From assembly GCF_030418295.1 (NCBI RefSeq), contig NZ_JAUHQA010000001.1, positions 620,001 through 684,000 of the forward strand: DNA of 64,000 nt, given 5' to 3'. Positions 3,789-61,605 of this stretch are shown in pieces; the first letter of the stretch is position 1, and every line of letters begins with the position of its first letter. A model generated the notes under the pieces. The model worked only from the letters and a program-made list of their open reading frames with translations, did no database searches and was not told the origin of the DNA. The stretch is from Demequina muriae (GTDB lineage: Bacteria > Actinomycetota > Actinomycetes > Actinomycetales > Demequinaceae). The position numbers were made by a program, and so were the translations under genes.

Positions 3789-3821
3789 GAGTTCTCCTTT
3801 GAATTCGTCAGCTCGCCGCGC

Positions 3822-3841
3822 ATGTTCGTTTATGTTCGTTT
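3822..3841. promoter_or_regulatory. Tandem ATGTTCGTTT repeat, candidate DeoR-type operator
   Basis: Two perfect adjacent copies of ATGTTCGTTT lie 34 bp upstream of the secreted glycosidase start, in the divergent region shared with the acetyltransferase fusion. The 9-mer TGTTCGTTT recurs, inverted, at 17200-17208 before the heparinase gene. TTCGTTT-type direct repeats are typical of DeoR-family sites, and a regulator with a DeoR helix-turn-helix lies at 19119. Binding is inferred. Confidence 0.5.
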
Positions 3842-3987
3842 AATGGTGCATTAAGCGCGGCTTTGCACGACATTAACTAGTCGTGCTTGACTCGTCAAGA
3901 GATGTGCACGTCGAAACGATCTGTCGTGCGATTCCGATGCGCACCTCTGTTCCCGCCCACCCCTCACCCGAAGGGACGCACGCCGAG

Positions 3988-5664: not shown

Positions 5665-5685
5665 CGGCCGCGCCCCCGCTCGCGG

Positions 5686-49059: not shown

Positions 49060-49202
49060 CCCGTCTCCCGCCTTTCCACCCGCACCCGGTTGCCCACCCG
49101 CACCCGCGTCCCCGTCAGCGCAAGTGTCGAGACGTGTGCGCTTTCGACCCGCTCGGCGCACGGCAGCTGACACTTACGGGATCGCAGCCGGCCCGGGCAT
49201 CG

Positions 49203-49679
49203 TCAGCCCGCGCGCGCCCGACCCTCGGCCGTGAGGGTGATGCCGTCCGAGAAGGACGCGAGTGCGTCGATGTCGAACAGCGGGAGCACACGGCGCGCAA
49301 TGGTCACGGTCGCCGTTCCGTCCGGCGCCGCCGTCACCTGTACCACGGCCACCTCCCCCGCCCACTCGCGTGCGTCTGCTGCCAGCCAGGCGGCGACGGC
49401 CCCGGCCATCGCGTCGTCGTCGAGCGCCACCGTGTCGTCGAGAGTCACGGTGTCGCCGCCCGCGGAGTAGTACTCCCCCGCATCGAGCTCGTCGGCGGCC
49501 GCGAGCGCGAGCTCATCAGCGAGGCTCGTCAGCCGCATGCGGTCGAGGTGCACCTGGGTGGCTGCCGCCATCACGAGCAGTGCCAGCAAGGTGAGCACCA
49601 CCCATCCGAGAGTCAACAGGGTGATGTTCCCGTCGTCGTCTCGCACGTCCGTCCTGAGCCACGCCCGCGAGCGCCTCAC
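49203..49679 (-). CDS. TadE-like protein of the Tad locus
   Basis: 158 residues. GTG 49679 overlaps the preceding stop (GTGA). A short charged leader (DDDGN) is followed by one hydrophobic helix (LLTLGWVVLTLLALLVMAAA), then a soluble domain. It fits the secretion-neighbourhood TadE-like family found at the end of actinobacterial Tad loci. It lacks the Glu at +5 seen in canonical pseudopilins. Cut off from the upstream tad genes by the inserted element. Confidence 0.72.
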   Translation of the reverse strand: MRRSRAWLRTDVRDDDGNITLLTLGWVVLTLLALLVMAAATQVHLDRMRLTSLADELALAAADELDAGEYYSAGGDTVTLDDTVALDDDAMAGAVAAWLAADAREWAGEVAVVQVTAAPDGTATVTIARRVLPLFDIDALASFSDGITLTAEGRARAG

Positions 49680-50152
49680 GGCGAGAACCCCTCGACAGGC
49701 GAACGCCCGGTCGCGGAGACGTCGACGGCAACTGGCACCACCTCGACCACCGGTCCGGGCACACCCGCCAGCGGCACCGCCACCACCACCTCGGCCGTGA
49801 CCGTGGATCCGGGCTCGAAGCACGGCGACGAATCGCACTCGAGAGTCACTGAAGGCTCGCCGCGCACCGAGAAGTCCTCGAGCGCGAGCGCCACCGCCGC
49901 CTGCGCCCGAGCGACCGCCGCCTCCCGCGCATCGGCCGCCGTTCCCCCGCTCTCCAGCGCGTCGAGGCCTGCCACGACGGCGCCACGGGCGGCCGACCGA
50001 CTCGCGCCCTCCACGGCGAACGCCGCAGCCTGGAACTGGGCGGCCGCGATCACGAGGTAGACCACCGGTACCAGCACCAGCACGGTGACCCCGAGGAACT
50101 CGACCATGGCCGCGCCCGCGTCGTCACGACGCCTTGCCGACACGTCAGCCAT
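49676..50152 (-). CDS. TadE/TadF-like pseudopilin
   Basis: 158 residues from ATG 50152, overlapping the previous stop by 8 nt. It has a prepilin-like processing site and helix (DDAGAAMVEFLGVTVLVLVP, Glu five residues after Gly), then an external domain with a Cys pair (ECDSSPC). Such minor pseudopilins help assemble Flp/Tad pili. Confidence 0.8.
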   Translation of the reverse strand: MADVSARRRDDAGAAMVEFLGVTVLVLVPVVYLVIAAAQFQAAAFAVEGASRSAARGAVVAGLDALESGGTAADAREAAVARAQAAVALALEDFSVRGEPSVTLECDSSPCFEPGSTVTAEVVVAVPLAGVPGPVVEVVPVAVDVSATGRSPVEGFSP

Positions 50153-50543
50153 CGCTGGCCTCGTCGAACGCCCTGGCCTCCACCCGCATCGTGCCCGGAC
50201 CCCAGAGCCCGACGATCGGCACCGCGGCCTCGAGCGTGACCACCACCACGCCGGCGCCGTCCACCGAGTCGCGAGAGGCGCGCGCGAGGATCTCCCGGTT
50301 GCCGAGCGCCGAGCGAGCGACCTCCTCGCTGCGCGCGACGCCGTCGTCGAGCGTCCTGTCAGCGCGTGCCCCGTGACGTGCGCCCTCATACGCGCTCGAC
50401 ACCAAGATGTTGCGCACGTGGAGAGCAAGCACCAGTTGCAGCACCGCGAGCCCGATCAGCACCACCAGAGTGCCGACGAGCACGAACTCGACTGCCGCCG
50501 ACCCCCGGTCGTGCTCAGCCCCCCGTGACGGAATCGATCGCAT
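50145..50543 (-). CDS. TadE-like pseudopilin
   Basis: 132 residues: DRGSAAVEFVLVGTLVVLIG is a canonical TadE leader and helix with Glu at +5, followed by SAYEGARHGARADRT, the conserved post-helix motif. The start overlaps the small pilin-like gene by 29 nt. Membrane-anchored minor subunit of the Tad pilus. Confidence 0.85.
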   Translation of the reverse strand: MRSIPSRGAEHDRGSAAVEFVLVGTLVVLIGLAVLQLVLALHVRNILVSSAYEGARHGARADRTLDDGVARSEEVARSALGNREILARASRDSVDGAGVVVVTLEAAVPIVGLWGPGTMRVEARAFDEASDG

Positions 50544-50691
50544 CGGTGAACAGGCCCTCCAACGCCGGCCCGGCGAGCGCCCAGATCGCGGCGACCAGTC
50601 CGGCAGTCATCAGCGTGATGAGCACCCAGCCAGGCACGTCACCGCGCTCCGGTTCCTCAGCCCCCACGCGTGTCATCAATCGTCGGATCAT
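50515..50691 (-). CDS. Small pilin-like membrane protein of the Tad locus
   Basis: 58 residues from ATG 50689-50691: a charged N-terminus (EEPERGDVPG), one hydrophobic helix (WVLITLMTAGLVAAIWALAG) and a short tail. Proteins of this shape occupy the Flp pilin position in actinobacterial Tad loci. The canonical G-N4-E processing motif is absent, so it may not be the major pilin. It lies 38 nt downstream of the tadC 3' part. Confidence 0.7.
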   Translation of the reverse strand: MIRRLMTRVGAEEPERGDVPGWVLITLMTAGLVAAIWALAGPALEGLFTDAIDSVTGG

Positions 50692-50729
50692 CGTGCTTCC
50701 CCCGTCTCATCGTGATGTTGCGCCATCGA

Positions 50730-50927
50730 TTAACCCCCGAGGTCGATTGCGACCAGACCCGGGAAGACTGCGAATGCCACCGTGACGGGGAGGATCAGGA
50801 ACACGACGGGCACCATCATCGCGATCTCGCGCCGCCCACCCTCCTCGACGAGTGCCTGCCGCCCCTGAGACCGTGCATCCTGCGCCTGGGCGCGCAGCAC
50901 CTCGGCCAGTGGGGTGCCGCGCTCCAC
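50730..50927 (-). pseudogene. tadC: tadC 3' fragment (split by the integrated element)
   Basis: 65 codons of the type II secretion F domain C-terminus: ERGTPLAEVLRAQAQDARSQ followed by two hydrophobic stretches ending GLVAIDLGG. There is no ribosome site or start of its own. Its first codons (Val-Glu-Arg) repeat the last codons of the N-terminal part at 59987-60730. Joining both at this point gives a normal TadC of about 306 residues. Confidence 0.9.
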
Positions 50928-50948
50928 GGAACGAGTAGATTACTCACC
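50905..50948. other. Left attachment site (attL) in tadC
   Basis: Host tadC coding sequence ends here and element sequence starts 21-25 bp before the integrase ATG. Codon alignment puts GCC-GCG-CTC-CAC (50916-50927) opposite CGC-ACG-TTC-GAC at the right end (59993-60004). Shared bases are scattered (CG, TC, AC), as expected for a serine integrase with a 2-bp crossover. The outer ACTC of the element half-site is at 50942-50945. Confidence 0.75.
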
Positions 50949-52646
50949 ATGGCAACTACCAGGCGCGCGATCACACTCGGCCGTCAGTCACGCGAGCGCG
51001 AAGACAAGAGCGCGGGCTCGCCCGAGATGCAGAAGCGGGAGACGCGAAGGTTCGTCGAAGAGAAGGGGTGGGACTTCGTCGAACACTTCGAGGACCTCGG
51101 CCGGTCCGGCTGGGACAAGGAGGCACCGCGCCCCGGCCTGGACGCTGCCCTCGCGGCGATAGAGGACCGGACGGCTGACACGCTCGTGGTCTACCGTCTG
51201 GACCGCCTCACTCGCCAGGGGCTCATGGAGGCGGCGTCGCTCCTGAAGCGCATCACGGATGCGGGCGGACGCCTGGTCTCCGCGACCGAGTCCGATATCG
51301 ACGTGTCGTCGTCGATGGGCGCCATGCAGTTCGCGATGCTCTCCGCATTCGCCAAGCAAGAGTCTGAGAACATCTCGACCCGAACCCGCAAGACCAAGGC
51401 CGAGTTGCGCCTCGCGGGCTCCCACATGAGCGGCCAACCTCCGTACGGTATGCGCGCCGTTCGTGCTGCGAATGGCCGACTTGTTGTGCGGATGCTAGAG
51501 CCCTACGAGGCAGAAGCGAAGCACGTTCGCGATGCCTTCAGCGCGGTACGCGACGGACGGTCGATAGCCGAGGTGGCGCGGGAGATGAACGCTAGAGGCC
51601 TACGCACGCGGCCGACGTCCAAGCGCCCTGACGGCGCCGAATGGACGACTTCGGCGCTCTCACGTCTGCTCCGAAATCCGACCATCGCGGGCTACATGCC
51701 CGAGACGCGTTCCCAACCTGCGGGATCGGGTAGGGCCTCGCGCGACGGCGCCACGCCGCGCGACGAACGTGGACGTATCGCTATCGCGCGAGACGCGGAC
51801 AACAATCTGTTTCAGCCGTGGGCGCCCATCGTGGACCCCGGCCAGTGGCATGAGTTGCAGGATGCCCTCGACAAGAGACCCCGGCTGCGCGGCAAGACCA
51901 AGACCCCTTCATTGTTGGGTGGAAACGGTCTTCTGCGCTGCGCTGAGTGTGGCGGCCCGATGTTCGCTGATCGGGCAAGAACCCGGGCGGCGTATCGGTG
52001 CAGTTGGCACCGAACGGGACGTACTCGCCTCGAATGCCCGGGCGTCTCCGTGGCACTCGATCCCACTGACGACTTCGTGGCGCTGGCGGTCTTCTCACGC
52101 CTGGCGACCCTCGCGCCTACGCCTATGGGCCCAGACGATGACGATTCACTTCGCGATGAAGATGCGGCGCTCCTGCTCACGCTGACGGAGCGTTTCGCGG
52201 CCCGGGAGGAGGATCCCGAAACTACGGCGCTTCGTGCGAGGCTTCGCGAGACGATCGCACAACTCGAAGGTGCGTTGTATCGTCTGGATGATGACCGCCA
52301 AGAGGGTTTCTACGACGGCGCTCTCGGTACGGAGAGATACCGCCGCCAATCGGCGACGCTGAGCGCCAAGTATGCCAAGGCGACCGAGGCGCTAGAGCAG
52401 GTGCCGGTCGCGACTGGAAACGGCCTGGTCCCTTGGCTGGACGCGCTCTCTACGACTCAGGACCCCAACGAGGGACCGTTAGGCGATGGGTCGATCTGGG
52501 CGAAGTGGGACGTAGCAGAGCGACGGGACTTTCTGGCACTGGTGATCGATCACGTGCGGGTGCGCAAGGGAACGCGCAACGGCGGCGTCTTCGATGCCGC
52601 TAGCCGTCTGGAGATTCGTTGGGCGACAGGACCCTCCACGCCGTAG
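50949..52646 (+). CDS. int: Large serine recombinase (integrase)
   Basis: 565 residues from ATG 50949. The resolvase domain (~5-150) has the catalytic Ser in LGRQSRE (Ser14) and VVYRLDRLTR. A recombinase domain follows (~170-270, RLLRNPTIAGYMPE), then a zinc ribbon (~330-365, CAECGG ... CSWHRTG ... CPG) and a coiled coil near 420-470. This is the layout of phiC31-type phage integrases. It starts about 21 bp from the left junction, the usual place next to attP. No excisionase-like directionality factor could be identified. Confidence 0.95.
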   Translation: MATTRRAITLGRQSREREDKSAGSPEMQKRETRRFVEEKGWDFVEHFEDLGRSGWDKEAPRPGLDAALAAIEDRTADTLVVYRLDRLTRQGLMEAASLLKRITDAGGRLVSATESDIDVSSSMGAMQFAMLSAFAKQESENISTRTRKTKAELRLAGSHMSGQPPYGMRAVRAANGRLVVRMLEPYEAEAKHVRDAFSAVRDGRSIAEVAREMNARGLRTRPTSKRPDGAEWTTSALSRLLRNPTIAGYMPETRSQPAGSGRASRDGATPRDERGRIAIARDADNNLFQPWAPIVDPGQWHELQDALDKRPRLRGKTKTPSLLGGNGLLRCAECGGPMFADRARTRAAYRCSWHRTGRTRLECPGVSVALDPTDDFVALAVFSRLATLAPTPMGPDDDDSLRDEDAALLLTLTERFAAREEDPETTALRARLRETIAQLEGALYRLDDDRQEGFYDGALGTERYRRQSATLSAKYAKATEALEQVPVATGNGLVPWLDALSTTQDPNEGPLGDGSIWAKWDVAERRDFLALVIDHVRVRKGTRNGGVFDAASRLEIRWATGPSTP

Positions 52647-52719
52647 CGAGCACCTCGGCACACTCCTACTACGAGGGGCGGCTCCGGCTCTATCCGTGTC
52701 TGCTCTTATGGAGGTCCCC

Positions 52720-52878
52720 GTGATTGACCCTCGTCCCTGCGCCGTATGCGCCGCCCCGCTCGCGCCGACCAAGCGCTCCGATGCCCGCTTCTGCGCCACT
52801 CGATGCCAGGAGCGCGCCCGCTGGGCCCGGCGGCGCCGCGAGATGCTCGCTGGCCGCGAAGCCCTCTCCACTTCCTAG
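52720..52878 (+). CDS. Mini zinc-finger protein (copy 1)
   Basis: 52 residues from GTG 52720 with GGAGG 5 nt before; ATG 52708 is an alternative. The core is CAVC-x14-CATRC followed by a highly basic helix (RARWARRRR). A second element gene at 54839 has the same CxxC-x14-CxxxC spacing and basic tail. Probably a small DNA- or RNA-binding factor; function unknown. Confidence 0.7.
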   Translation: MIDPRPCAVCAAPLAPTKRSDARFCATRCQERARWARRRREMLAGREALSTS

Positions 52879-52882
52879 TTTC

Positions 52883-52929
52883 AGGTGCGCGCCCGCCCAA
52901 ATCCCGTGTCGGGGTCCGAGCGCGCACCT
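52883..52929 (+). terminator. Hairpin after integrase and zinc-finger genes
   Basis: A perfect 10-bp inverted repeat AGGTGCGCGC / GCGCGCACCT with a 27-nt spacer, 5 nt past the zinc-finger stop. It probably ends the integrase transcript. Confidence 0.55.
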
Positions 52930-53120
52930 GTCTCATCCTCGGCGCGTTGGTCCGCGTCGTTTGAGTGCCGTCCGCTCTCCTGGCGCGCGCGGCACGCCCC
53001 GTGCGGGTAGGGTCCGCGCGGTCGCGGCGATGGCTTCCAACATGCGCCGCACCTGCGCCTCGCACTGGTTCTACTGGTGCCCGGCGCGGCAACGCGTGGC
53101 CCCTCGGCTCGCCACGCACG

Positions 53121-53175
53121 CATAGGCCGCCCCTGCGCGCCGCCCGGCTGCGCGAGCAGCGCGGGGCGGCCTATG
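53121..53175 (+). terminator. 13-bp-stem terminator before the capsid operon
   Basis: CATAGGCCGCCCC pairs exactly with GGGGCGGCCTATG across a 29-nt GC-rich loop and is followed by a pyrimidine-rich run (CCCCTTCTGTCTTTCC). It insulates the capsid genes from upstream transcription. Confidence 0.75.
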
Positions 53176-53321
53176 CCCCTTCTGTCTTTCCCCCGCTCAC
53201 TCCGGCGCCAAGGCGCGCCCCGTGAGAGATCCCCAGAGCCCTCCGGAGCCAGTGGTCCCGGCTTGCGGCTCGCACCCAGGTGGTGACTCCCCCTATCCCT
53301 TCGGCTCCCCAAGGAGTACCC

Positions 53322-54215
53322 ATGCCCAATGAGTTCCTCAACCCCGAAAAGGTCGCGGCCCTCGCTGCGACCCTCGCCGCCGCTGACCTCGGCCTGACCC
53401 AGCACGTCTACCGCGACGTCGCCTCAGACTTCGGTCAGGGCGTGTCTGGCAAGACCGTCCAGATCCGCGTGCCCGGCGTGACCACGACCGGCTCGCGTCC
53501 CGTGGGCTCGACCGAGAACTACGTCCAGGGCTCCCTGACGGAAACGTCGATCCCCGTGACCCTTGAGAACGAGATCTACTCCTCGGTCCCCATCACCCTC
53601 GACGAGGCAGACCTCGAACTGAAGGACTTCGGCGCCCAGGTCCTGCGCCCGCAGGGCCAGTCCGTCGCCCACCAGATCGATAAGGCCGTGGCGGACGCCA
53701 TGGCAGCGACCTCGCCCGAGGCGTCGATCGTCTACGACAGCACTAATCCGCGTGCCAGTCTGATCCGTGCCCGTGCGGTCCTGCGCGCCCGTGGCGTGAA
53801 TGCGAACCGGGCCCTGACCGCGATCGTCGGAGCGAACGTCTTCGCCGACCTCGCCGAGGCGAACGTCCTCGAACCGGCCGCGAACGGCACGTACCACGTC
53901 GCCGGTATGGCGGTGGTCGAGAACACTCTCGTGAGCCCTTACGCCCTTTACGTGATGGTCAAGGAGGCCTTCGTGGCGGCTGTCCGTGCGCCGGTCCCCC
54001 CGCATGGCGCGGTCACGGCTGCCAGCGTCACTGCCAGCGGCATGGCTCTCACGCACATGATCGGGCTCAACATCGCCAATGGCGTCTCGTCCTCGGTCCT
54101 GACCGCCTTCGTCGGAGTGGCGCCGCTTCCGCTTGCGGTGGCGAACTATGAAAGCGGCTCGGTCGACCTCGTCGACGGCGGCGGCGTGGTGGCCGTCAAC
54201 ACGACCGGCGCGTGA
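53322..54215 (+). CDS. Phage major capsid protein, P22 coat type
   Basis: 297 residues from ATG 53322 with AAGGAG 7 nt upstream. The pattern is that of P22 gp5-like HK97-fold coat proteins: FLNPEKVAALAATLAAADLG, VYRDVASDFGQGVSGKTVQI, the VTLENEIYSSVPITLDEADL beta/elbow region, EDFGAQVL-like LKDFGAQVLRP, and DPYGALV-like NPRASLIRARAVLRARGVNA. At 297 residues it is short beside the ~400+ of P22 coat. No scaffold or protease gene accompanies it. It should form the shell that packages the element. Confidence 0.85.
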   Translation: MPNEFLNPEKVAALAATLAAADLGLTQHVYRDVASDFGQGVSGKTVQIRVPGVTTTGSRPVGSTENYVQGSLTETSIPVTLENEIYSSVPITLDEADLELKDFGAQVLRPQGQSVAHQIDKAVADAMAATSPEASIVYDSTNPRASLIRARAVLRARGVNANRALTAIVGANVFADLAEANVLEPAANGTYHVAGMAVVENTLVSPYALYVMVKEAFVAAVRAPVPPHGAVTAASVTASGMALTHMIGLNIANGVSSSVLTAFVGVAPLPLAVANYESGSVDLVDGGGVVAVNTTGA

Positions 54216-54619
54216 GCCTGGCTCTCCCCCCGGACGTCGACGCTTTAGCGACGCGCCTGGGCCTGCTCCTCTCGGATCTGTCCGGGGTGGAGCGGGCCCG
54301 GGCCTCGGCCGCCCTGGCCGATGCGACGGCCCTCGCGCTGGATGAGGTCGCGCCGCACGTCGCGGCGGACTGGTCTCTCGGCGCCCCGGCGAGCGTCCAC
54401 GTCATCATCCTGAAGGCGGCCCGCCGCGAGTACGAGAATCCGCAGGGATTGCGCTCGGAGACCGTCGGCGAGCATGGCGTCACAATCGCGTTCGCGTCCG
54501 GCGTCTACCTGACCGAGCCCGAGAAGCGCTCGATCCGTCGCGCCGCGACCGGTCGTGTCGGCGGCTTCGTCGGCACGGTCCGCACGCCCTCCGCTTACGC
54601 CCCGGAGACCCCCAGCTGA
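54212..54619 (+). CDS. Phage head-tail adaptor/connector
   Basis: 135 residues; GTG 54212 overlaps the capsid stop (GTGA). A helical N-terminus (LSGVERARASAALADATALA) precedes HVIILKAARREYENPQGLRS, the NP-G-x-x-S segment common in HK97 gp6-like adaptors, then GVYLTEPEKRSIRRAA. It would sit below the portal and join the capsid to helper-derived tails. The portal itself is not encoded here. Confidence 0.75.
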   Translation: MSLALPPDVDALATRLGLLLSDLSGVERARASAALADATALALDEVAPHVAADWSLGAPASVHVIILKAARREYENPQGLRSETVGEHGVTIAFASGVYLTEPEKRSIRRAATGRVGGFVGTVRTPSAYAPETPS

Positions 54620-54765
54620 ACAAATCGTGAGCGCCCCTCACAAATCTTGAAAGGCCCTGGCCCTACGTCGCCCTGCCCCGGCCGATTGGCCGCGCGAGAG
54701 CGCCGCCTACGCGGCAGTGAGCAGATCCGCGAACGCTGGCCCACTCCTTCCACATCACAAGAGAT

Positions 54766-54796
54766 CGACCCGCTGCCACCGCCCCGGCGCGGGTCG
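54766..54796 (+). terminator. Hairpin downstream of the adaptor gene
   Basis: An 8-bp stem CGACCCGC / GCGGGTCG with a 15-nt loop, followed by TTCTCTT, 147 bp past the adaptor stop and 42 bp before the next start. Likely the end of the capsid operon. Confidence 0.6.
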
Positions 54797-54838
54797 TTCT
54801 CTTGGCCCTCTCACTGTGACGTCACGAAAGGAACCACG

Positions 54839-55006
54839 ATGCCCCTCACCCCCGCCCCGCCCTCGCGCTGTCTGACCTGCGACCGCGCGCTACCGCAGGA
54901 CGCTGACCCCCGCCGCCTCACGTGTTCCGATGCGTGCCGTGCCCGCCGCTACCGCGAGCGCCGTGCCGCCGAACTGAAGCGCCTTCGCGCCCTCGTCGGC
55001 GAGTGA
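54839..55006 (+). CDS. Mini zinc-finger protein (copy 2)
   Basis: 55 residues from ATG 54839 with AAAGGA upstream. Core CLTC-x14-CSDAC, then RARRYRERRAAELKRL, a basic amphipathic helix. It shares Cys spacing, length and basic tail with the protein at 52720, so the two are probably paralogues. Possible regulator of element genes. Confidence 0.72.
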   Translation: MPLTPAPPSRCLTCDRALPQDADPRRLTCSDACRARRYRERRAAELKRLRALVGE

Positions 55007-55154
55007 GTGTAGGAAGTGTAGTTCTGAAGGTACTTCTGATTCAGGTCTCCAGTTCATCTCTCCCTAGCGTCACCGGCTCCCTGCCTCCCTAACAGCGATC
55101 TAGCAGGCCTTGCCAGTGCGCCTTTCCTCCCTGGAGCCTCACTGAGCGTCCCTA

Positions 55155-55260
55155 TGTAAATGGCGCTGAAGTGCTGTGTAAGCGCGCCGGGAGAGCCTCC
55201 GGCTCTTTGATCGGCCGGAGGCCGTTTACACGCCGCTGAGCCACTGCGCGCCGTATTACA
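55155..55260. other. Inverted TGTAA cluster: candidate replication origin or control site
   Basis: Four TGTAA elements lie in this non-coding stretch: two on the plus strand (55155, 55177) and two inverted (TTACA at 55226 and 55256). Each is next to a GC-rich GGCG-type motif. Midway is a 9-bp perfect inverted repeat GCCTCCGGC / GCCGGAGGC (55195-55222). The whole gene-free stretch is 55007-55339, directly upstream of the putative replication gene. Iteron-like layout; role inferred. Confidence 0.45.
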
Positions 55261-55339
55261 GCGCACTTGCAACTCCGGGCACCGCCCGAGCCCCACACCT
55301 CCCAGAGCCCGCCCACGGGCCGCCGAAAGGATCCGCGCC

Positions 55340-56203
55340 ATGACTCGCCCCGCCATGGCCGACGCGCGCGAGCGCCTCGGCCTCGACCCCCTGCCTACCG
55401 GCCCCGAGGACGGCCTCCTCGCCGCTCTTCACGCCGACCCCGTCGCCGCATTGCCTGAACCATCGACCGCCCGCCGAGACGGCGCTCTCCCGGTCGCCCT
55501 GCTCCCTGTGGGACACCTCACCGCCGACGCCCGAGCCCGGGGCCTCTCCGGGGGCGCGGGCCGCGCCTACGCAATCGACGGTCGCGCCGTCTCTGCCGCG
55601 TCCGCCGCGTCGCTCCTTGCCGACGTGCTCGACGACGCCGCTGCGATCCTCCGCGCCGAGGAGGAGACCGTCGAAGCGCTCAACGGGGAGCGGCGCATGA
55701 TCGCGGGCTACTTCTTCGACGTCGCAGAGCCCGACGAAGACGTGCGGGAGACCATGCGGCAGATTCACGAGGCCGTCGGCTGGACCACGGGCGCCGAACG
55801 CGCACTCCGATCTCCCGGCTCGGCAAGACTCATCGAAGACCGCGCCGACACGATCGCGCGCCTCGCCCGCGCCCTCGACGCGACGGCGCTGTCGCTGCGA
55901 ACGTCGGCCGCCGCTCGGCGCACCTTGCTCCCGCTGGTCCGCGACCACCTCGCACCCGACGCCGCGCCCTCGCCTGACGAGGCGGCCGCATTCCTGGCGC
56001 GCTTCGACGGCGAGGCCACAGTCCGCCGCTCAACGGTCTGGGACGCATACGAGACCGAGGGCTCGCCCGGGGCCCTCGATCGACCTGCGCTCTATGCCCT
56101 CGCGGATGACCGCTGGGGCCGCTCTGTGAAGTCCTCCGGCTACCCGCTCTGGCGCCCGATCTCGGGCACCCGCTCACGCCGCCCGGCGCTGCGCCTGTCC
56201 TGA
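55340..56203 (+). CDS. Putative replication/primase-related protein
   Basis: 287 residues from ATG 55340 (GAAAGG upstream). The first ~180 residues are Ala-rich and helical with no known motif. The last ~70 (EAAAFLARFDGEATVRRS, VWDAYE, ALYALADDRWGRSVKSSGYP) resemble the winged-helix tail of P4-type phage and plasmid primases. No helicase or TOPRIM motif is present. Its place beside the repeated TGTAA region supports a replication initiator, but it could be a transcription factor. Confidence 0.45.
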   Translation: MTRPAMADARERLGLDPLPTGPEDGLLAALHADPVAALPEPSTARRDGALPVALLPVGHLTADARARGLSGGAGRAYAIDGRAVSAASAASLLADVLDDAAAILRAEEETVEALNGERRMIAGYFFDVAEPDEDVRETMRQIHEAVGWTTGAERALRSPGSARLIEDRADTIARLARALDATALSLRTSAAARRTLLPLVRDHLAPDAAPSPDEAAAFLARFDGEATVRRSTVWDAYETEGSPGALDRPALYALADDRWGRSVKSSGYPLWRPISGTRSRRPALRLS

Positions 56204-56230
56204 ACCCCAAGCCACAAGAGAGGAACCGAC

Positions 56231-56395
56231 ATGAATGGCAAGAAGGGCCGTATGAAGAACCGAGGTCACGGCTGGCTGGCACCGACCATCGCCCACGACC
56301 GCAAGGCGGCACCCTGGCGCAACAAGGCGAGCGAAGCCGCTGCGCTGGCCGCCCACGATCGTCCTCGCAACCGTGCCGAGCGGCGCGCCCGATGA
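56231..56395 (+). CDS. Small basic protein, unknown
   Basis: 54 residues, rich in Lys and Arg (MNGKKGRMKNRGHGWLAP at the start, RPRNRAERRAR at the end), with a GAGAGG Shine-Dalgarno. Its stop overlaps the ATG of the next gene (ATGA), supporting translation. Not recognised. Confidence 0.65.
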   Translation: MNGKKGRMKNRGHGWLAPTIAHDRKAAPWRNKASEAAALAAHDRPRNRAERRAR

Positions 56396-56736
56396 CCGAG
56401 CCCGACACGATCGAGATCCGAGGCCACTCGCTCGACGGCATCGGTTGGGCGGTGCGCGTCCCGGCGCACTCGCCGCAGGCGGCCCGCCTATCTCGCGCCG
56501 CCGAGTGCACCAACGCCCGCCGTGCGGATCAGCGCCGCCTGTCGGCGATCGTTGACGACCCTGACCGCGCGAACGAGGCCGCCTCGATCGCTGCCCGCCT
56601 GGCGGCGCCGACGCTGGATCGTCTCGCAGCACGGCGCCCGGACTACCTCACCGCTCGCTACTACTCCGGCCCGCTTGCCCCGCTGGCGGCCGATGCCCGC
56701 GACCACCTGCACCACTCAACCCACCTGGAGGACTGA
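56392..56736 (+). CDS. Hypothetical protein of the element
   Basis: 114 residues. A short beta-like start (DTIEIRGHSLDGIGWAVRVP) is followed by a helical, Ala/Arg-rich body with a YLTARYYSGPL segment. Coupled to the gene before it by ATGA and separated from the next by 3 nt. Not recognised. Confidence 0.65.
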   Translation: MTEPDTIEIRGHSLDGIGWAVRVPAHSPQAARLSRAAECTNARRADQRRLSAIVDDPDRANEAASIAARLAAPTLDRLAARRPDYLTARYYSGPLAPLAADARDHLHHSTHLED

Positions 56737-56739
56737 CCC

Positions 56740-57036
56740 ATGCCCATGCTCGAACCCAAAGACCAGACCAATGCGACCAATGCCGAGTTCATCGCGACCG
56801 TATGCACAAAGTGTCCATTACTTCGCGACTGGCCCCACGCGGACGTGTTGGGCCTGGCCGCGAACGTGGCGACGCTCGCCTATGGTGACGATCTCCCGGC
56901 GGTGTGGTCACTGCTCGACGGCGTCGGCATGGACCGCCACCAGGGACGGGCATTCGCTCGCGAGGTGCTAGTCAGCCTGTACCCGGCCGCAGTGTCGATT
57001 CCCGCGCACTCCGAACCGGACGGCGAAGACACGTAG
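56740..57036 (+). CDS. Hypothetical protein of the element
   Basis: 98 residues with GGAGG about 9 nt before ATG 56740. A CTKC motif near residue 22 is followed by helices (DVLGLAANVATLAYG, RAFAREVLVSLYP). Last gene of the plus-strand set that starts at 55340, converging on the membrane protein gene. Not recognised. Confidence 0.62.
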   Translation: MPMLEPKDQTNATNAEFIATVCTKCPLLRDWPHADVLGLAANVATLAYGDDLPAVWSLLDGVGMDRHQGRAFAREVLVSLYPAAVSIPAHSEPDGEDT

Positions 57037-57042
57037 CGACAC

Positions 57043-57795
57043 CTATGGAATCGGACGCCTTCCACGCAGGCGGCGCCACAGTCGCCCGGCACGTACGCGG
57101 ATGCTGATCTGATCCTCCTGCGGCGCGAAGTCCCACACGAAACTCGCGGGGTCTTCGTGCACGCGCTCGATCGGCTCGGCTTCCTCGCGGAGCCACCAGC
57201 GTCCGGCCGCGTCGCGAAACACTACTTCGTGACAGGTCCCGATGACCATGAAGCGCGAGCGTAGTGGAGCAAGAAACTCAGCGACGGTCTCCGAGTGCGG
57301 CGGCACGATTCCGATCACGCCCGTTGCGGCGACATCATTGTCGAGGTAAATCCGGACGTTGACTTTGGAGACGAGTTCGTCGCTAACGTTGCACACTGCG
57401 ACTGTATAGATCACCTGGTCCTCGGCGGCGATGAAGAGGTCCCGACCCTCTTTGTCTTGGACGTCGAGCGGAGCACTCCCACCTGCGGCGAAGGTACGCC
57501 CATCAAACCGAACCGTCGCACCGTCCGCGAGCGCCGGGAACTTGGCGCCCTTGATGACGGTCCTGACATGCCTCGTCTCGGAGTAGACCAAGCGCGCTTG
57601 CGCTTTGCGCCGTCGGGACACTTCGAGCGCGAGCGACACCGCAGCAATGAGGAAAGCGAGGCCCGTGAGGATCGCCGCTACCCATTCGGGCCAGGTTCCT
57701 AGTCCTATTCCGGCGCCCGCATCGACCGGCACCGTGGGGACGAACGAGGCTGCCGGGGTAGGCCATGGGTCGACTGGGGGCGAGATCACGTCCAC
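57043..57795 (-). CDS. Single-pass membrane protein, element cargo
   Basis: 250 residues from GTG 57795. A Pro-rich N-terminus outside, one membrane helix (~37-58, WVAAILTGLAFLIAAVSLAL), a basic stop-transfer (SRRRKAQ), then a ~190-residue mixed beta domain in the cytosol (IYTVAVCNVSDELVSKVNVR, FRDAAGRWWLREE). It is opposite in strand to its neighbours and more AT-rich. Placement fits accessory cargo such as superinfection exclusion or defence, without direct evidence. Confidence 0.65.
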   Translation of the reverse strand: MDVISPPVDPWPTPAASFVPTVPVDAGAGIGLGTWPEWVAAILTGLAFLIAAVSLALEVSRRRKAQARLVYSETRHVRTVIKGAKFPALADGATVRFDGRTFAAGGSAPLDVQDKEGRDLFIAAEDQVIYTVAVCNVSDELVSKVNVRIYLDNDVAATGVIGIVPPHSETVAEFLAPLRSRFMVIGTCHEVVFRDAAGRWWLREEAEPIERVHEDPASFVWDFAPQEDQISIRVRAGRLWRRLRGRRPIP

Positions 57796-58002
57796 AACCT
57801 AGCGGACCGCGCTCAACTGCTCGCGGGGTGGGGGCTCCCCCCTCCCCGGGGGTCGGCCAGTCTCCCGGAGCGCATAGCGGCTGCCGTGATGCGTGCGCAC
57901 GGCCCGGTTCCCCGGCGAGTCCACCTTGACCCACTTCCCACACTCGCGCCCGGCGCTCAGCGTCGCGCTGCACCCTCATATCCCTGACACGGAGGACCCC
58001 TG

Positions 58003-58350
58003 ATGACTGAACCAATATTCGACCTGCCCGACCACTGGACTACCGCCGCGCGCGAGACCGTCGAGGAGGTCCTCTCCGTCCGCCCGGACCTTGACGGCGC
58101 CGATCTCGGCGCGCTGGAGCAGGCCGCCGAACTGATCTCCCAGGCCGACGCCCTTCGCGACGTCGCGAGCGCCGCCGGATGGGTCTCGCGCTCCGACTCC
58201 GGCGCCGAGGTCCCGCACCGCGCGGCTGCCGAGGCTCGCCAGGCTCGCGCGTCGGCGGCGGCGATCCTCGGCCGCCTGGTCGACGTCAACGCTCAGACCG
58301 ACCGCTCGGCCGCTGGCCGTGCCCTGGCCCGCAAGCGGTGGGCCCGATGA
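58003..58350 (+). CDS. Small terminase subunit-like protein
   Basis: 115 residues with GGAGG before ATG 58003. The central pattern (LEQAAELISQADALRDVASA, then a Gly/Ser loop SRSDSGAEVPHRAAAEARQA, then AAAILGRL) follows P27/HK97-type small terminases: helix, short hairpin, HP-like turn, helix. A satellite-coded TerS would steer a helper large terminase to element DNA. The call rests on pattern only. The 207-bp gap before it (57796-58002), with a GGGGGCTCCCCC repeat, could hold the packaging site. Confidence 0.5.
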   Translation: MTEPIFDLPDHWTTAARETVEEVLSVRPDLDGADLGALEQAAELISQADALRDVASAAGWVSRSDSGAEVPHRAAAEARQARASAAAILGRLVDVNAQTDRSAAGRALARKRWAR

Positions 58351-58679
58351 AGCGGGTTCGCTCTGTCCCGCTCCCGGCGCGCGCGGTGGAGATCTCGCCC
58401 CGTCACTGGCGTTCGGGCGAGACTCTCCCGCCCCTGACCCTCTCGCCTCCGCGTCGCGGCGGTTGGACTCTGGATCGTGCCGCGAAGGCCGCCCGCGCGT
58501 ACGCGCACGAGAACGGGCTCGGCGAGAGCGCTGCCCGCTCGGCGTTCCGGGCGATCGCGGTGTACGCCCATCCGCGCCCGTCGTCGATGCCGCCCGATGC
58601 CCACTATGTCCCGCCGCTGGCGCTTGCGGCGATGCGTGCTCGTCTGCGCGACGGCCGCGATCCGCTCGCGCTGGACTGA
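58347..58679 (+). CDS. Hypothetical protein coupled to the TerS-like gene
   Basis: 110 residues; ATG 58347 overlaps the TerS-like stop (ATGA). Basic N-terminus (MKRVRSVPLPARAVEI), then helices (AARAYAHENGLGESAARSAF). Co-translation suggests a packaging or morphogenesis partner. Not recognised. Confidence 0.6.
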   Translation: MKRVRSVPLPARAVEISPRHWRSGETLPPLTLSPPRRGGWTLDRAAKAARAYAHENGLGESAARSAFRAIAVYAHPRPSSMPPDAHYVPPLALAAMRARLRDGRDPLALD

Positions 58680-58686
58680 CACACCG

Positions 58687-58720
58687 AAGCCCCCGCCCTC
58701 CTCTGAGAGGGCGGGGGCTT
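58687..58720. terminator. Bidirectional terminator
   Basis: A 14-bp perfect stem AAGCCCCCGCCCTC / GAGGGCGGGGGCTT with a 6-nt loop, flanked by T-rich sequence, lies between convergent genes. The clearest terminator in the window. Confidence 0.9.
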
Positions 58721-58735
58721 TCGTCGTTTCTCGGA

Positions 58736-58870
58736 CTATGCGGCGTCGCGTGCCGGGGCGGAGAGTAGGTCGACCATCTCGGTGAACTCCAGATCGGAGA
58801 CGGCGTCTCCAAGGAGCGGGTCGAGGATGGCGGCGAGGGCTTCCTGGCGGTGTGTGTTCGGTGTGTTCAT
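58736..58870 (-). CDS. Small acidic hypothetical protein
   Basis: 44 residues from ATG 58868-58870: helical with many Leu, Asp and Glu (QEALAAILDPLLGDAVSD). The stop lies just before the bidirectional terminator, supporting a real minus-strand transcript. Not recognised. Confidence 0.45.
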   Translation of the reverse strand: MNTPNTHRQEALAAILDPLLGDAVSDLEFTEMVDLLSAPARDAA

Positions 58871-58961
58871 ACCCCGAGCATGGCACGCCGCGACGATCCT
58901 CGCAAGCCTCGATGCACTACTTACCAGGCATTACGCGTGAGGCGCCTCACGCGTGGACACT

Positions 58962-59168
58962 TCACGGGAGGAGCGCGAGGTCCGCCGACTCCGCCAGGAG
59001 GTAGCGCTTCGCGGCCGCGAACTCGGAGATAGCGGCGACCTTCTCCGCGTCCGACGCTCCGGCCTCCTGGAGCGCGAGCACCGACTCATAGCAGGCGTGC
59101 GCGACGGCGGAGCCTAGATGGTTCTCAGGCCGCGCCAGGATCGCGCTCAGGGCCTCGTCTCGCGTCAT
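58962..59168 (-). CDS. Small hypothetical protein
   Basis: 68 residues from ATG 59168 (TRDEALSAILARP at the start); a start at 59213 would add 15 unlikely residues. Helical, with ALQEAGASDAEKVAAISEFA. The opening TRDEALSAIL recalls the neighbouring protein (HRQEALAAIL), so the two may be related. Divergent from the HIRAN gene. Confidence 0.5.
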   Translation of the reverse strand: MTRDEALSAILARPENHLGSAVAHACYESVLALQEAGASDAEKVAAISEFAAAKRYLLAESADLALLP

Positions 59169-59232
59169 GCCGCACAGAGTATCGGCGCGCTGGTAGCGTC
59201 CAAACCAGGCCAACGAGAGCGAGAGGTGCGAG

Positions 59233-59925
59233 ATGGGGATACTCGATCGTTGGAGGCGGAAGGCCCGTGAGCCCCTGCCATTGCCTCAATCGACGGTCAC
59301 GACCGGGAAGGCTTCACCAGACTGGCGCGACGCGGTCCGGCGTTACCGTGACCCAAGCCACCCTGAGCGCCCTCCGAACCCAAAGAAGGTCGCGCGGTCG
59401 ATCCACTCGTCAAAGACACTGACACCCGACCGGGCAACAGTTGAACGCGAGTGCGAGATTGCGGGCATCCCCTCGGCGGCGGTCTATGCCGAACTAGACG
59501 CTATTCGCGCCCGGGAAGCAGGCGCGGAGAGGGATCGACGAAGTGGCTGGCGCGAGAGAACGCGCACCCTCGATATTGATCCCGAACGCGTTGTCGATCT
59601 GCGACCTCTCGGCGGCACACCGTGGAAGGTCGTCGGCGCGGGGCATTGGCTCAGTGACCGCGAGCGTGACTTGCTCCGCCCGGGCTGGTTTGTCTTGCAC
59701 CGGGAACCGGAGAACCCCTATGACTCTGACGCAGTCGCGGTTTACCTCGACTGCCGCAAGATTGGCTACCTCACGAAGGCGAAGGCCAAGGCGCACAGCC
59801 CGATACTCGCGACGTTCCCGGCGGACGGCTTCGAAGTCGACGCCACGATCAGCGGTCGCAATGTGCTTGTGACGCTGCCTCAACCATCGGTGTTGCGTAG
59901 GTTCGCGAACCGCGCAGTGGCGTAA
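59233..59925 (+). CDS. HIRAN-domain protein
   Basis: 230 residues with GAGAGG before ATG 59233. The N-terminal ~115 residues are basic and unrecognised. Residues ~130-195 match the HIRAN fold: WKVVGAGHW, LHREPENPYDSDAVAVYL and KIGYLTKAKAKAHSP, including the NPYD-AVAV core. HIRAN domains bind DNA 3' ends in SNF2-type repair proteins and also occur alone. It is the last gene before the right junction, a typical cargo position, perhaps for genome protection or defence. Confidence 0.7.
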   Translation: MGILDRWRRKAREPLPLPQSTVTTGKASPDWRDAVRRYRDPSHPERPPNPKKVARSIHSSKTLTPDRATVERECEIAGIPSAAVYAELDAIRAREAGAERDRRSGWRERTRTLDIDPERVVDLRPLGGTPWKVVGAGHWLSDRERDLLRPGWFVLHREPENPYDSDAVAVYLDCRKIGYLTKAKAKAHSPILATFPADGFEVDATISGRNVLVTLPQPSVLRRFANRAVA

Positions 59926-59980
59926 TTCGAGACTCCGGCGCGTCACTGAGCCCCGCTTGGCCTACGCAGGCTCCGCCCGC

Positions 59981-60010
59981 GAGTGACTATTGCGCACGTT
60001 CGACTGCGGT
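59981..60010. other. Right attachment site (attR) in tadC
   Basis: Element sequence (GAGTGACTATTG) meets tadC coding sequence here. The tadC frame reads Ala-Val-Glu-Arg, then Ala-Gln and a stop supplied by the element (59987). The outer GAGT at 59981-59984 mirrors ACTC at 50942-50945. In the rebuilt attP these are about 46 bp apart, with the dyad centre at about 50924/60001. Confidence 0.72.
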
Positions 60011-60730
60011 GGCGATGCCTTCGGCGAACCGCTCGAGAGCTGGCACCCCCAGCTCCCTGGCCATCCGTGTGAGTGCCGCGGGCAGGCGCTGGCCCGCTCT
60101 CGCGTCGGCCAGAGCGAGCGCGATCTCCCCGGTGAGCTCCCCTGAGGTGGTGCGCGCCACTCTCTCGAGGGCGGCCAGCGCGCTCTCGCCGGCGCCCACG
60201 GACAGCGCGAGGAGCTCCGCGATGGTCGGCAGCTCGGCGACGAGCCGACGCTGACGGCGCTTCACTGACTGTGTGAGAACGGCGTCACGTCCGAGCACTC
60301 CGCCGATCGCGAGCACGAGCGCCAGTACGGTGGACGCGAGCACCGGTGCCCCTCTGGTGGCGGTCAGCACGAGCGCCAGCACCACGCCCACCGCGAGACC
60401 GACCGCTCCCCACACGACCTGCTGCGCGCGGAACTGCTCGACGGAGAGGCCTGACCCCGAACGCCGAAGCCGTCGCGCGACGTCGGACGACGGCGAGCCC
60501 CACCGGCTGATCACCGTCCCGATGTCGCGCACCACGGGCGCCAGGAGTCGTTCGAGCGCGGGCACCGGCGTCACGGAGTAATCGCGACGCCGCACCTCGT
60601 CGCCCAGGGTGGTCCGCAGGAACGGCGCGATGCGCGCATCGAGCGTCGCACGGCGCGCCCCAGCCCACGCGAGCACCAGCACACCGCCCATACCAAGGGT
60701 GCTTCCGAGGACGACCTCGACCCACGTCAT
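59987..60730 (-). pseudogene. tadC: tadC 5' fragment (split by the integrated element)
   Basis: 247 residues of a TadC-type pilus platform protein: two N-terminal helices (~90-140), then the T2SF cytoplasmic domain (AELPTIAELLALSVGAGESA, FAEGIATAVERA). It ends prematurely at an element-supplied stop, missing the ~60 residues with the last helices encoded at 50730-50927. A truncated TadC is unlikely to support pilus assembly. Start ATG 60730 is 13 nt after tadB. Confidence 0.9.
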
Positions 60731-60743
60731 CGCCGCCCCCCGT

Positions 60744-61604
60744 TCATCTCAGCACCCGCGCTTCCTCGGGCAGCTGTCCTACGCGCATCATCAGTCGGTA
60801 TGCGACCACGGTGCTGGCGCCGCCCAGCGCGAGCACCACCACCCCCGCCGGTGAGTTGTAGGCGGCCGCGTTGGAGCCCTGAGTCGCGAGCATGGCGAGC
60901 ACCGCCCACGGAGCGGCCACCGCGAGCCGTGCGGCGTTGACCGTCCACGACTGTCGAGCCTCGAGCTCGCCGCGTGTGCGGGCGTCGTCCCTCAGAAACT
61001 CGGCCAGGGTCCTCAGCACCCGCCCCACGTCCGTGCCGCCCACGTCCCGCGTGATTCTCAATGTCTCGACCAGGCGGTCCGCAACCGGGTCCGCGAGCCT
61101 GCCCTTGAGGGCGTCGAGGCAGTCGTGGAAGCGGCCAGACGCACGGTAGTCCTCCGCGAACAGCGCAAAAGGCTCGCGCAGCGCCACAGGGCCCCGGTCG
61201 CCGATCTGTGCCACCGCCTCGGGCAGCGCGAGCCCAGCGCGAATGCCCGATGCGAGCGAGTCCACCACCTCGGGCCACAGTTCGCGGGTCGCCTGGCTCC
61301 GTGCGCGGGCACGCGCTGAGACGAGTGCGAACGGCGCCCTCGCCGCAAGGACTGCGAAGCACGCGGCGATCGGGGCAGCGTCCGACAGGCCCGCCACGAC
61401 GATGAACGTCACGATCCCCAGCCCCGCGGCGACTCCCACCAGGGCGGCCGGCGTGACTGACGGAGCGCCGGCTCGAACCAGATGGTCCTGCGTGCGCGCC
61501 GACCACCCGTCACGTGTGCGCTCTCGACGCTGAGGCGGCGGCCAGAACGACCACCACACCATGAACAGTCCCAGTCCGAGCACCGCCCCCCACAGCGCAT
61601 CCAT
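60744..61604 (-). CDS. tadB: Tad pilus platform protein TadB
   Basis: 286 residues from ATG 61604, 1 nt after the tadA stop. N-terminal helix, two more at ~50-90, the T2SF domain (ASGIRAGLALPEAVAQIG, TLRITRDVGGTDVGRVLRTL) and C-terminal helices. It forms the inner-membrane platform with TadC. Confidence 0.88.
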   Translation of the reverse strand: MDALWGAVLGLGLFMVWWSFWPPPQRRERTRDGWSARTQDHLVRAGAPSVTPAALVGVAAGLGIVTFIVVAGLSDAAPIAACFAVLAARAPFALVSARARARSQATRELWPEVVDSLASGIRAGLALPEAVAQIGDRGPVALREPFALFAEDYRASGRFHDCLDALKGRLADPVADRLVETLRITRDVGGTDVGRVLRTLAEFLRDDARTRGELEARQSWTVNAARLAVAAPWAVLAMLATQGSNAAAYNSPAGVVVLALGGASTVVAYRLMMRVGQLPEEARVLR

Positions 61605-61605
61605 G

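Follow-up and report, generated by a model that had tools for sequence, protein, structure and literature searches.

In the phage-inducible chromosomal islands (PICIs), the replication origin (ori) is located 3' of the rep gene and has an AT-rich region between two sets of iterons, and a homologue of primase is found as well, according to the available portion of PMC6092414. The capsid-forming PICIs (cf-PICIs) carry genes for capsid, protease, portal, connectors, both terminase subunits, and HNH, and the Streptomyces satellites MulchRoom and MiniFlayer are described as having no primase homologues in the accessible part of PMC10690885. Here, we analyze a 64,000-nucleotide stretch of DNA from Demequina muriae (contig NZ_JAUHQA010000001.1, positions 620,001–684,000 of the forward strand), referred to as the window, whose own numbering is used throughout. 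It contains an integrated element that we read as a phage satellite with a capsid gene of its own. Inside the element, a 333-bp non-coding gap (55007–55339) precedes a 287-codon open reading frame (ORF), ORF287. An original prediction, made from the sequence alone, had proposed this gap as the origin of the satellite and the product of ORF287 as its initiator. The explanation that we tentatively favor, at a little less than an even chance, is that the gap and ORF287 together are the replication module (origin plus initiator) of the satellite.

Conserved Hairpin Block in the Gap

The gap was compared among three sequences, that of the window (genome G000) and those of two related Demequina elements, L006 (genome G019) and L007 (genome G014). 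It follows a 55-aa zinc finger-like ORF and, as stated originally, directly precedes ORF287; it is overlapped by two minus-strand frames, 55054–55356 and 55256–55948, when frames of at least 70 aa are considered. The alignment reveals a conserved block, from which a covariance model (R1) was built. Within the block, all seven base pairs of hairpin H2 are intact in all three sequences, and four of the seven show two-sided changes. The covariation score of H2 together with the adjacent hairpin H3 is 0.500, a value reached by 2 of 500 shuffles, and six versions slid by 1–3 columns score 0.167 at most. Because the arms of H2 change while their pairing stays, the structure would be one formed in RNA or single-stranded DNA, and not a fixed operator. 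The outer pair of H2 is conserved; it is a G-T, which pairs only in RNA of the plus strand.

The 20-bp stretch that is invariant in the three sequences consists of H3 (55212–55224, 5-bp stem and GGA loop) and then TTTACAC, the location of the sole TGTAA common to all three. The loops of H2 (TCC, TCC, and TTC) could pair with the GGA loop of H3 in each sequence. Between the window and L006 the block is identical at 81 of 120 positions, a higher proportion than the 45 of 88 found in the capsid gene at its fourfold sites (one-sided P 0.013).

No match to Rfam was obtained in the three core loci or in positions 52500–56500 of the window, and only a tRNA was found in two further loci discussed below, L047 and L054. 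An 18-bp core of the block had no match among viral contigs, and the L006 gap had none among phages in a distant blastn search. The core did match genome G007 with two mismatches; no element gene lies nearby (tblastn), the site appears by eye to be in a chromosomal gene, and it was rejected.

AT-rich Stretch and Direct Repeats

The beginning of the gap coincides with a candidate melting region. The AT-richest 40-bp window of the element, located here, has 60% AT, and the medians are 32.5% for 40-bp and 31.7% for 60-bp windows. A 12-bp unit is present in 2.2 copies at 55013–55039, inside this stretch. In L007 the AT-richest 40-bp window is likewise in this gap, and the L006 and L047 gaps rank as the second and third distinct AT-rich regions of their elements, a ranking that depends on approximate bounds for L006, L007, and L047 and is to that extent a weaker point for an origin.

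Next to the AT-rich stretch, the word CYCCCT occurs on the plus strand of the gap four times in the window, six times in L006, six times in L007, and once in L047 (shuffle P 0.007, 0.003, 0.008, and 0.43, respectively). The copies drift together, as 4 of 4 are CTCCCT in the window and 5 of 6 are CCCCCT in L006 and again in L007. The AT-rich stretch, the short C-rich repeats, and H2 are origin-like features beyond those named in the original prediction.

Co-occurrence and Exchange of the Block and ORF287

Homologues of ORF287 are found in 3 of the 44 genomes of the genus, that of the window included. Those in L006 and L007 are 45–46% identical to ORF287, and ORF287 and its relatives range from 274 to 346 aa. 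A profile of the family matched 5 of the 396 genomes of the order, namely G000, G014, G019, and two others with partial matches. When genome contigs were scanned with the ORF287 alignment, only D. mangrovi and D. rhizosphaerae were found, and a scan with the single protein had no match. The weak profile match in G349 (L022; 3.4e-4) was discounted as a chance one, since tblastn showed no element gene next to it. In common with the window, L006 and L007 have the integrase type, the capsid and adaptor genes, ORF287, and the next small ORF.

R1 matches G000, G014, and G019 at 131–153 bits and no other of the 396 genomes, which were run with the stricter filters applied to more than 40 genomes. On the window, L006, L007, L047, L048, L049, L050, L051, and L054, it returned the three known sites and nothing else below an E value of 0.15. 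Since R1 and the ORF287 profile were both built from the window, L006, and L007, the informative point is that the block is absent elsewhere and that no block occurs without ORF287. The pairing of gap and ORF put forward originally is upheld to the extent that the gap is conserved and travels with ORF287; the array and the 9-bp repeat to which the origin had been assigned are not the conserved unit, as shown below.

A fourth satellite provides a comparison in which the two are missing together. A capsid profile matches 11 of the 396 genomes, and of the eight besides those of the window, L006, and L007, we examined G010, G331, G322, G091, and G163 and left out G243, G345, and G349. The locus in Demequina genome G010, L047, matches the window in the integrase (28%), the capsid protein (44%), the small ORF 3' of ORF287 (46%), a minus-strand ORF (33%), and the HIRAN-domain protein (66%), and ORFs resembling the adaptor and the zinc finger-like ORF are in place by eye. 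The slot between the zinc finger-like ORF and the small ORF is occupied by a 327-aa ORF that is unrelated, and the gap there, which contains no TGTAA, is different as well. L047 keeps the core of IGR1, a second conserved non-coding block described below. In the genomes searched, the block is absent wherever ORF287 is absent, and in the fourth element it is replaced along with the ORF. The gap and the ORF seem to have been exchanged together in G010, as a cis site would be with the protein cognate to it.

The 327-aa ORF occurs in 1 of the 396 genomes, G010, where it is present twice, and it has no match among phages. Its relative (34% identical) is in another element of G010, beside what are by eye a tyrosine integrase and an excisionase-like helix-turn-helix ORF. 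The neighborhood of such genes is a common location for the initiator of an integrative element. The structural model of the 327-aa protein is poor (pLDDT 58.3) and has an order of helices and strands similar to that of ORF287, which is only suggestive of a shared fold.

Predicted Structure of the ORF287 Protein

An AlphaFold2 model of ORF287, built from the three sequences, has a pLDDT of 76.8 and a pTM of 0.65. Residues 211–276 (about 55970–56167) align to many winged-helix domains with Z scores of up to 7.4, although by the tool's own warning a Z below 8 may mean merely a common arrangement, which weakens the case for a replication protein. The best three rows are Zur, Rpc5, and Fur (Z 7.0–7.4 over 62–63 residues), and no family stands out. 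The C terminus is therefore best described as a predicted, generic winged helix.

The claim that this domain resembles that of a primase is borne out for the winged helix as a predicted fold; a relation to primases was not found by Pfam, PHROGs, PDB, or Foldseek. Viral Foldseek rows named primase or virulence-associated E have E values of about 0.8–3, and two zinc finger-like ORFs match phrog_8643 (DNA polymerase/primase) at 0.014–0.015 only. The Pfam and PHROGs scans took in 11 of the ORFs of the element, plus one later. No primase homologue was found among the 11, no HUH endonuclease family was found among the scanned ORFs, and no His-x-His is seen by eye in ORF287. PDB sequences gave no match, and ORF287 had none in viral contigs.

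Proposed Replication Module and Alternatives

A replication module could operate as follows. The integrase would excise the element, and ORF287 would use the winged helix at its C terminus to bind the gap, the probable sites being the C-rich direct repeats, a conserved GTTTAC box, or both. The AT-rich stretch would then open, and the two adjacent hairpins, acting in DNA or in RNA, would provide a structured strand where replication proteins of the host or helper could load. We favor this module because the block and ORF287 co-occur and are swapped together in G010, H2 covaries, an AT-rich spot and co-drifting short direct repeats are found in the gap, the C terminus of ORF287 models as a winged helix, and the relative of the swapped-in ORF adjoins a tyrosine integrase and an excisionase-like ORF. 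A more far-reaching version is distinctly more doubtful, although we take it seriously. In it, ORF287 would found a new family of satellite initiators, the origin would consist of the AT-rich stretch, the C-rich repeats, and adjacent hairpins with complementary loops, and the module would be a plug-in cassette that is exchanged whole, with the capsid genes on one side of it and the downstream genes on the other.

Several results weigh against the module. The block is represented by just three sequences, two of which are close. The best of 100 shuffled copies reached an identity of 0.66 (mean 0.48) as compared with 0.675 observed between the window and L006, and between L006 and L007 the block (110 of 122 positions) is no better conserved than the fourfold sites of the capsid (167 of 189) or adaptor (93 of 95) genes. 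Folding of the single sequences of the window, L006, and L007 is not consistently better than that of shuffles (z-scores of -2.16, 0.21, and -0.84 as RNA and -2.28, -0.53, and -1.55 as DNA). When the window gap is shuffled 2000 times, four copies of some 6-mer are reached in 24% of cases, and AT-rich DNA with repeats can fit a promoter region equally well. ORF287 and its relatives contain no replication domain or Rep family recognized by Pfam or PHROGs, and a Foldseek search of the ORF287 model against PDB and BFVD gave nothing at E ≤ 0.001. ORF287 has no match in phage records (E limits of 1 and 0.1) or in 72,556 plasmid records (E ≤ 0.1). As to the exchange, it was observed once; L047 has no tblastn match (E ≤ 0.01) for the adaptor, zinc finger-like, and small terminase-like (TerS-like) ORFs; and a comparison of profiles of ORF287 and of the swapped-in type of ORF gave nothing.

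Furthermore, a 78-codon frame in G109, from another family of the order (L021, 8120–8356), matches the ORF287 profile over 55 residues at 8.6e-8. Its 16-kb surroundings contain no R1 match and no capsid gene (tblastn). The frame appears to be a genuine piece of an ORF287 family member, possibly a remnant outside Demequina, and since it has no block, the family would not always be accompanied by one, which counts against strict co-occurrence. A distant serine integrase is located about 4 kb from the frame.

The main and close rival of the replication module is that the gap is a promoter or leader and ORF287 a winged-helix regulator of its own operon, the hairpin serving as an operator or as part of the mRNA leader. 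The same data fit this almost as well, and we consider it rather unlikely but well worth weighing. Transcription regulators (Zur, Fur, BlaI, MecI, and PadR) make up many of the winged-helix rows, which also speaks against an initiator, and the block is directly 5' of ORF287 on the coding strand. The plus-strand RNA pairing of the outer G-T of H2 would suit a leader, and a regulator and its operator would likewise be swapped together. On the other hand, a simple scan showed no sigma-70-like site in 54600–55500, other promoter types being outside that scan, and the block has no Rfam match. The variation of the H2 arms with preserved pairing speaks against H2 itself being an operator recognized by its sequence, and 274–346 aa would be large for a phage-type repressor.

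It is improbable that the block serves in packaging, as a cos or pac site recognized by the satellite's own small terminase together with a large subunit from the helper. An element encoding a TerS-like ORF should carry a packaging site, and the hairpins and the conserved box would suit one. However, the block is present in the three ORF287 elements and not in L047, and by tblastn the TerS-like ORF has a homologue in L007 and not in L006 or L047, whereas the block is in both L006 and L007. The IGR1 core, which is present in all four satellites and in L054, is a better candidate.

Equally improbable is that the TGTAA array is a binding site specific to the window or a coincidence and has no shared function. 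The absence of three of the four copies from the relatives is in favor of this, but the conserved 20-bp stretch and the covarying hairpin would be left unaccounted for.

All four TGTAA elements, two per strand, are present in the gap as originally described, and so is the perfect 9-bp inverted repeat (55195–55203 and 55214–55222, with 10 nt between the arms). The density claimed for TGTAA stands as a clustering in the gap, which holds four of the eight copies of the window; the window as a whole is at chance (8 found and 8.38 expected). Four copies in the gap were reached by 0 of 5000 dinucleotide shuffles. When the word is allowed to be chosen post hoc, some 5-mer with at least four A/T is found at four copies in 1.35% of 2000 shuffles of this one gap, which is in favor of coincidence. 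That the copies are iteron-like was not confirmed: each strand has two of them, their starts are 22, 49, and 30 bp apart, and the gaps of L006 and L007 contain one TGTAA each, in both cases at the position aligned with 55226–55230 of the window. TGTAA as a conserved unit was rejected, as three of the four copies are absent from L006 and L007. The 9-bp repeat was rejected as a conserved structure as well. It is complete only in the window, and over the three sequences 77.8% of its cells are paired, 4 of 9 pairs are broken somewhere, and no pair covaries. The relatives thus keep one of four TGTAA and a different, covarying hairpin, and the array with its repeat is not supported as the functional unit. 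Both are largely private to the window, and the conserved unit is, from the alignment, the covarying hairpin block beside ORF287. The original prediction does point to a genuine unit of conserved non-coding DNA, although its grounds for doing so were wrong.

Lastly, the hairpins are very improbable as an intrinsic terminator ending transcription of the capsid genes: although a terminator-like plus-strand stem at 55186–55203 with the tail TCTTTGATCG overlaps the block, which is a point against the replication module too, and 54600–55500 contains two such sites as compared with 0.4 expected in shuffles, the T-run is short, the H2 stem ends in CCTTGAC in L006 and CCTTGCC in L007 when read by eye, and the 20-bp invariant stretch would be left unexplained.

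If the gap and ORF287 are a replication module, a minimal replicon of about 1.2 kb and an unassigned initiator family would emerge from the little-studied capsid-carrying satellites of actinobacteria. Satellites would then be able to exchange the replication cassette yet keep their capsid genes, and the division between functions encoded by the satellite and functions supplied by the helper would become testable. A compact plasmid origin for actinomycetes could also result.

Boundaries and Gene Content of the Element

The flanks of the element, 48118–50927 and 59995–62000, are contiguous in genome G002, where they match positions 1–2753 and 2744–4749 of locus L035 with 84–85% identity and a 10-nt overlap. 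This empty site places the element at about 50928–59994 (Table 1). The interrupted chromosomal gene, which we take to be of the tadB/tadC type, is an open frame of 326 codons in L035 as compared with 253 codons in the window. The integrated state evident from the empty site, an integrase of its own, and an incomplete set of phage genes are the marks of a phage satellite, and we read the 9.07-kb element as a capsid-gene-carrying satellite of Demequina. The satellite nature assumed in the original prediction is supported by these features and by the capsid, adaptor, and weakly matched TerS-like genes.

Table 1. Positions of the features of the element in the window
Feature	Coordinates	Strand	Basis
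Integrated element, 9.07 kb, within a chromosomal gene	50928–59994		Empty site in L035
Large serine recombinase (integrase)	50949–52646	+	Pfam Resolvase 7e-29, Recombinase 2e-13, zinc ribbon 8e-8; phrog_95 integrase 1e-86; start codon (50949) predicted
Major capsid protein	53322–54215	+	phrog_283 major head protein 4e-28
Head-tail adaptor Ad1	54212–54619	+	phrog_137 4e-12
IGR1 core, second conserved non-coding block, upstream of zinc finger-like ORF	54718–54747	+	L006, L007, L047, L054
55-aa zinc finger-like ORF	54839–55006	+	PF09889 treble clef 0.0099, below cut-off; 71% over 21 aa in L006
AT-rich stretch, candidate melting region	55002–55061		AT-richest 40-bp and 60-bp windows of whole element
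CTCCCT direct repeats, four	55060–55134 (55060, 55077, 55085, 55127)	+	CYCCCT word count
Conserved hairpin block	55150–55275	+	Three-sequence alignment; covariance model R1
TGTAA words, four	55155, 55177, 55226–55230, 55256–55260	+, +, -, -	Word search of window
Hairpin H2, covarying, 7-bp stem, TCC loop	55191–55207	+	Three-sequence alignment
9-bp inverted repeat	55195–55222		Present in window, not conserved
20-bp invariant stretch	55212–55231	+	Longest run identical in window, L006, L007
ORF287, candidate initiator	55340–56203	+	L006 and L007 homologues; predicted C-terminal winged helix
Conserved small ORF 3' of ORF287	56392–56736	+	Homologues in L006, L007, L047
TerS-like ORF	58003–58350	+	PF05119 0.006, below cut-off; L007 homologue 49% identical
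HIRAN-domain protein	59233–59925	+	PF08797 2e-7; homologue in L047

The capsid protein matches 221 phage records by tblastn, every one below 60% identity. Mycobacterium phages account for 97 of them and Arthrobacter phages for 71, and the 20 best rows all belong to Arthrobacter phages 42–45 kb in size. Viral contigs gave no match to it. None of the 11 ORFs scanned first was assigned to a portal, large terminase, protease, or tail family. The L007 homologue of the TerS-like ORF matches phrog_1496, terminase small subunit, at 0.001, and has no Pfam match at E ≤ 5.

Directly 3' of the adaptor gene, at 54620–54658, a 20-bp unit beginning ACAAATCNTGA is present twice, and ACAAATCG is also found 3' of the adaptor in L006 and L007. 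Scaffold-like proteins are encoded upstream of the capsid gene in L006 (3963–4742) and L007 (9236–9961, minus strand), with matches to phrog_15003 at 2e-7 and 2e-11, respectively. No counterpart is seen by eye in the list of ORFs of the window's element.

Second Conserved Block and Other Satellites

IGR1 is conserved over 54690–54760 of the window. Its core is found at 6384–6413 in L006 and on the minus strand at 7564–7593 in L007, 8474–8502 in L047, and 9057–9085 in L054. The motif, GAGCAG...CGGCCnACTCC, is located, in each of the four Demequina satellites, 5' of what is by eye the zinc finger-like ORF. In L054, a tyrosine-integrase element of G010, the core is upstream of an excisionase-like ORF. 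A loose pattern, run on 10 sequences, also matched six other places at 7–8 differences; the L007 core itself has seven, so its assignment depends on its position and on the alignment. In the 44 genomes, a stricter, ungapped pattern picked up the two G010 copies and no others; it had no match in viral contigs, and IGR1 has none in Rfam. The block is a candidate for a cos/pac site or a regulatory element.

L047 also encodes an HNH endonuclease at 5238–5798 on the minus strand (phrog_333, 1e-31), and tblastn found no TerS-like homologue in this locus. In another family of the order, L048 (G331) and L049 (G322) have a serine integrase and a capsid gene, the capsid proteins being 297 and 296 aa long, respectively. 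The TerS of L048 matches phrog_1496 at 9e-18. Large restriction/methylase-like ORFs are seen by eye near both elements, which are possibly defense-carrying capsid satellites.

Comparison with Known Systems

No publication was recognized as describing this element in a search that most subscription papers fell outside of, which is weak evidence of novelty. As far as the available portion of PMC10690885 describes them, the cf-PICIs and the Streptomyces satellites MulchRoom and MiniFlayer resemble the Demequina element in having a major capsid protein and a connector of their own. They have a fuller set of head and packaging genes, including portal and large terminase, whereas a capsid gene, an adaptor, and a weak TerS-like gene were found in the Demequina element among the 12 ORFs scanned.

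The pri-rep-ori arrangement of the PICIs, to the extent that it is covered by the accessible part of PMC6092414, is also similar, because both are small integrated satellites in which a DNA-binding protein (putative in the case of ORF287) is encoded beside a repeat-bearing, AT-rich non-coding stretch, together with a TerS-like gene. The candidate origin differs in being 5' of ORF287, the comparison covering this side only, whereas the PICI ori is 3' of rep. The PICI iterons flank the AT-rich region; in contrast, the CTCCCT repeats are on one side of it, and the next upstream copy is at 53531. A primase homologue is present in the PICIs and none was found among the 11 ORFs scanned here. Unlike the PICIs of that account, the Demequina element encodes a capsid protein of its own and an integrase of the serine type.

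The tight linkage of a possible initiator gene to a non-coding region with nearby repeats or motifs is shared with iteron plasmids and with the RepA-type prophage replicons described in the available portion of PMC7157519. As compared with an iteron theta replicon, the gaps of the three ORF287 elements have four to six short repeats beside the AT-richest stretch, and 6 bp is short for an iteron. ORF287 also differs from the initiators of such replicons in having no Rep family match in Pfam, PHROGs, or the plasmid records at the limit given above. The same portion of PMC7157519 reports RNA-based origins of extrachromosomal mycobacteriophages, which are similar in that a non-coding region of an actinobacterial mobile element, here one that may act as RNA, is involved. 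Those origins need no protein products, whereas the block goes with a specific ORF. The mycobacteriophage RepA and RNA-based origins are to be regarded as possible functional analogues of the Demequina module, and not as demonstrated kin.

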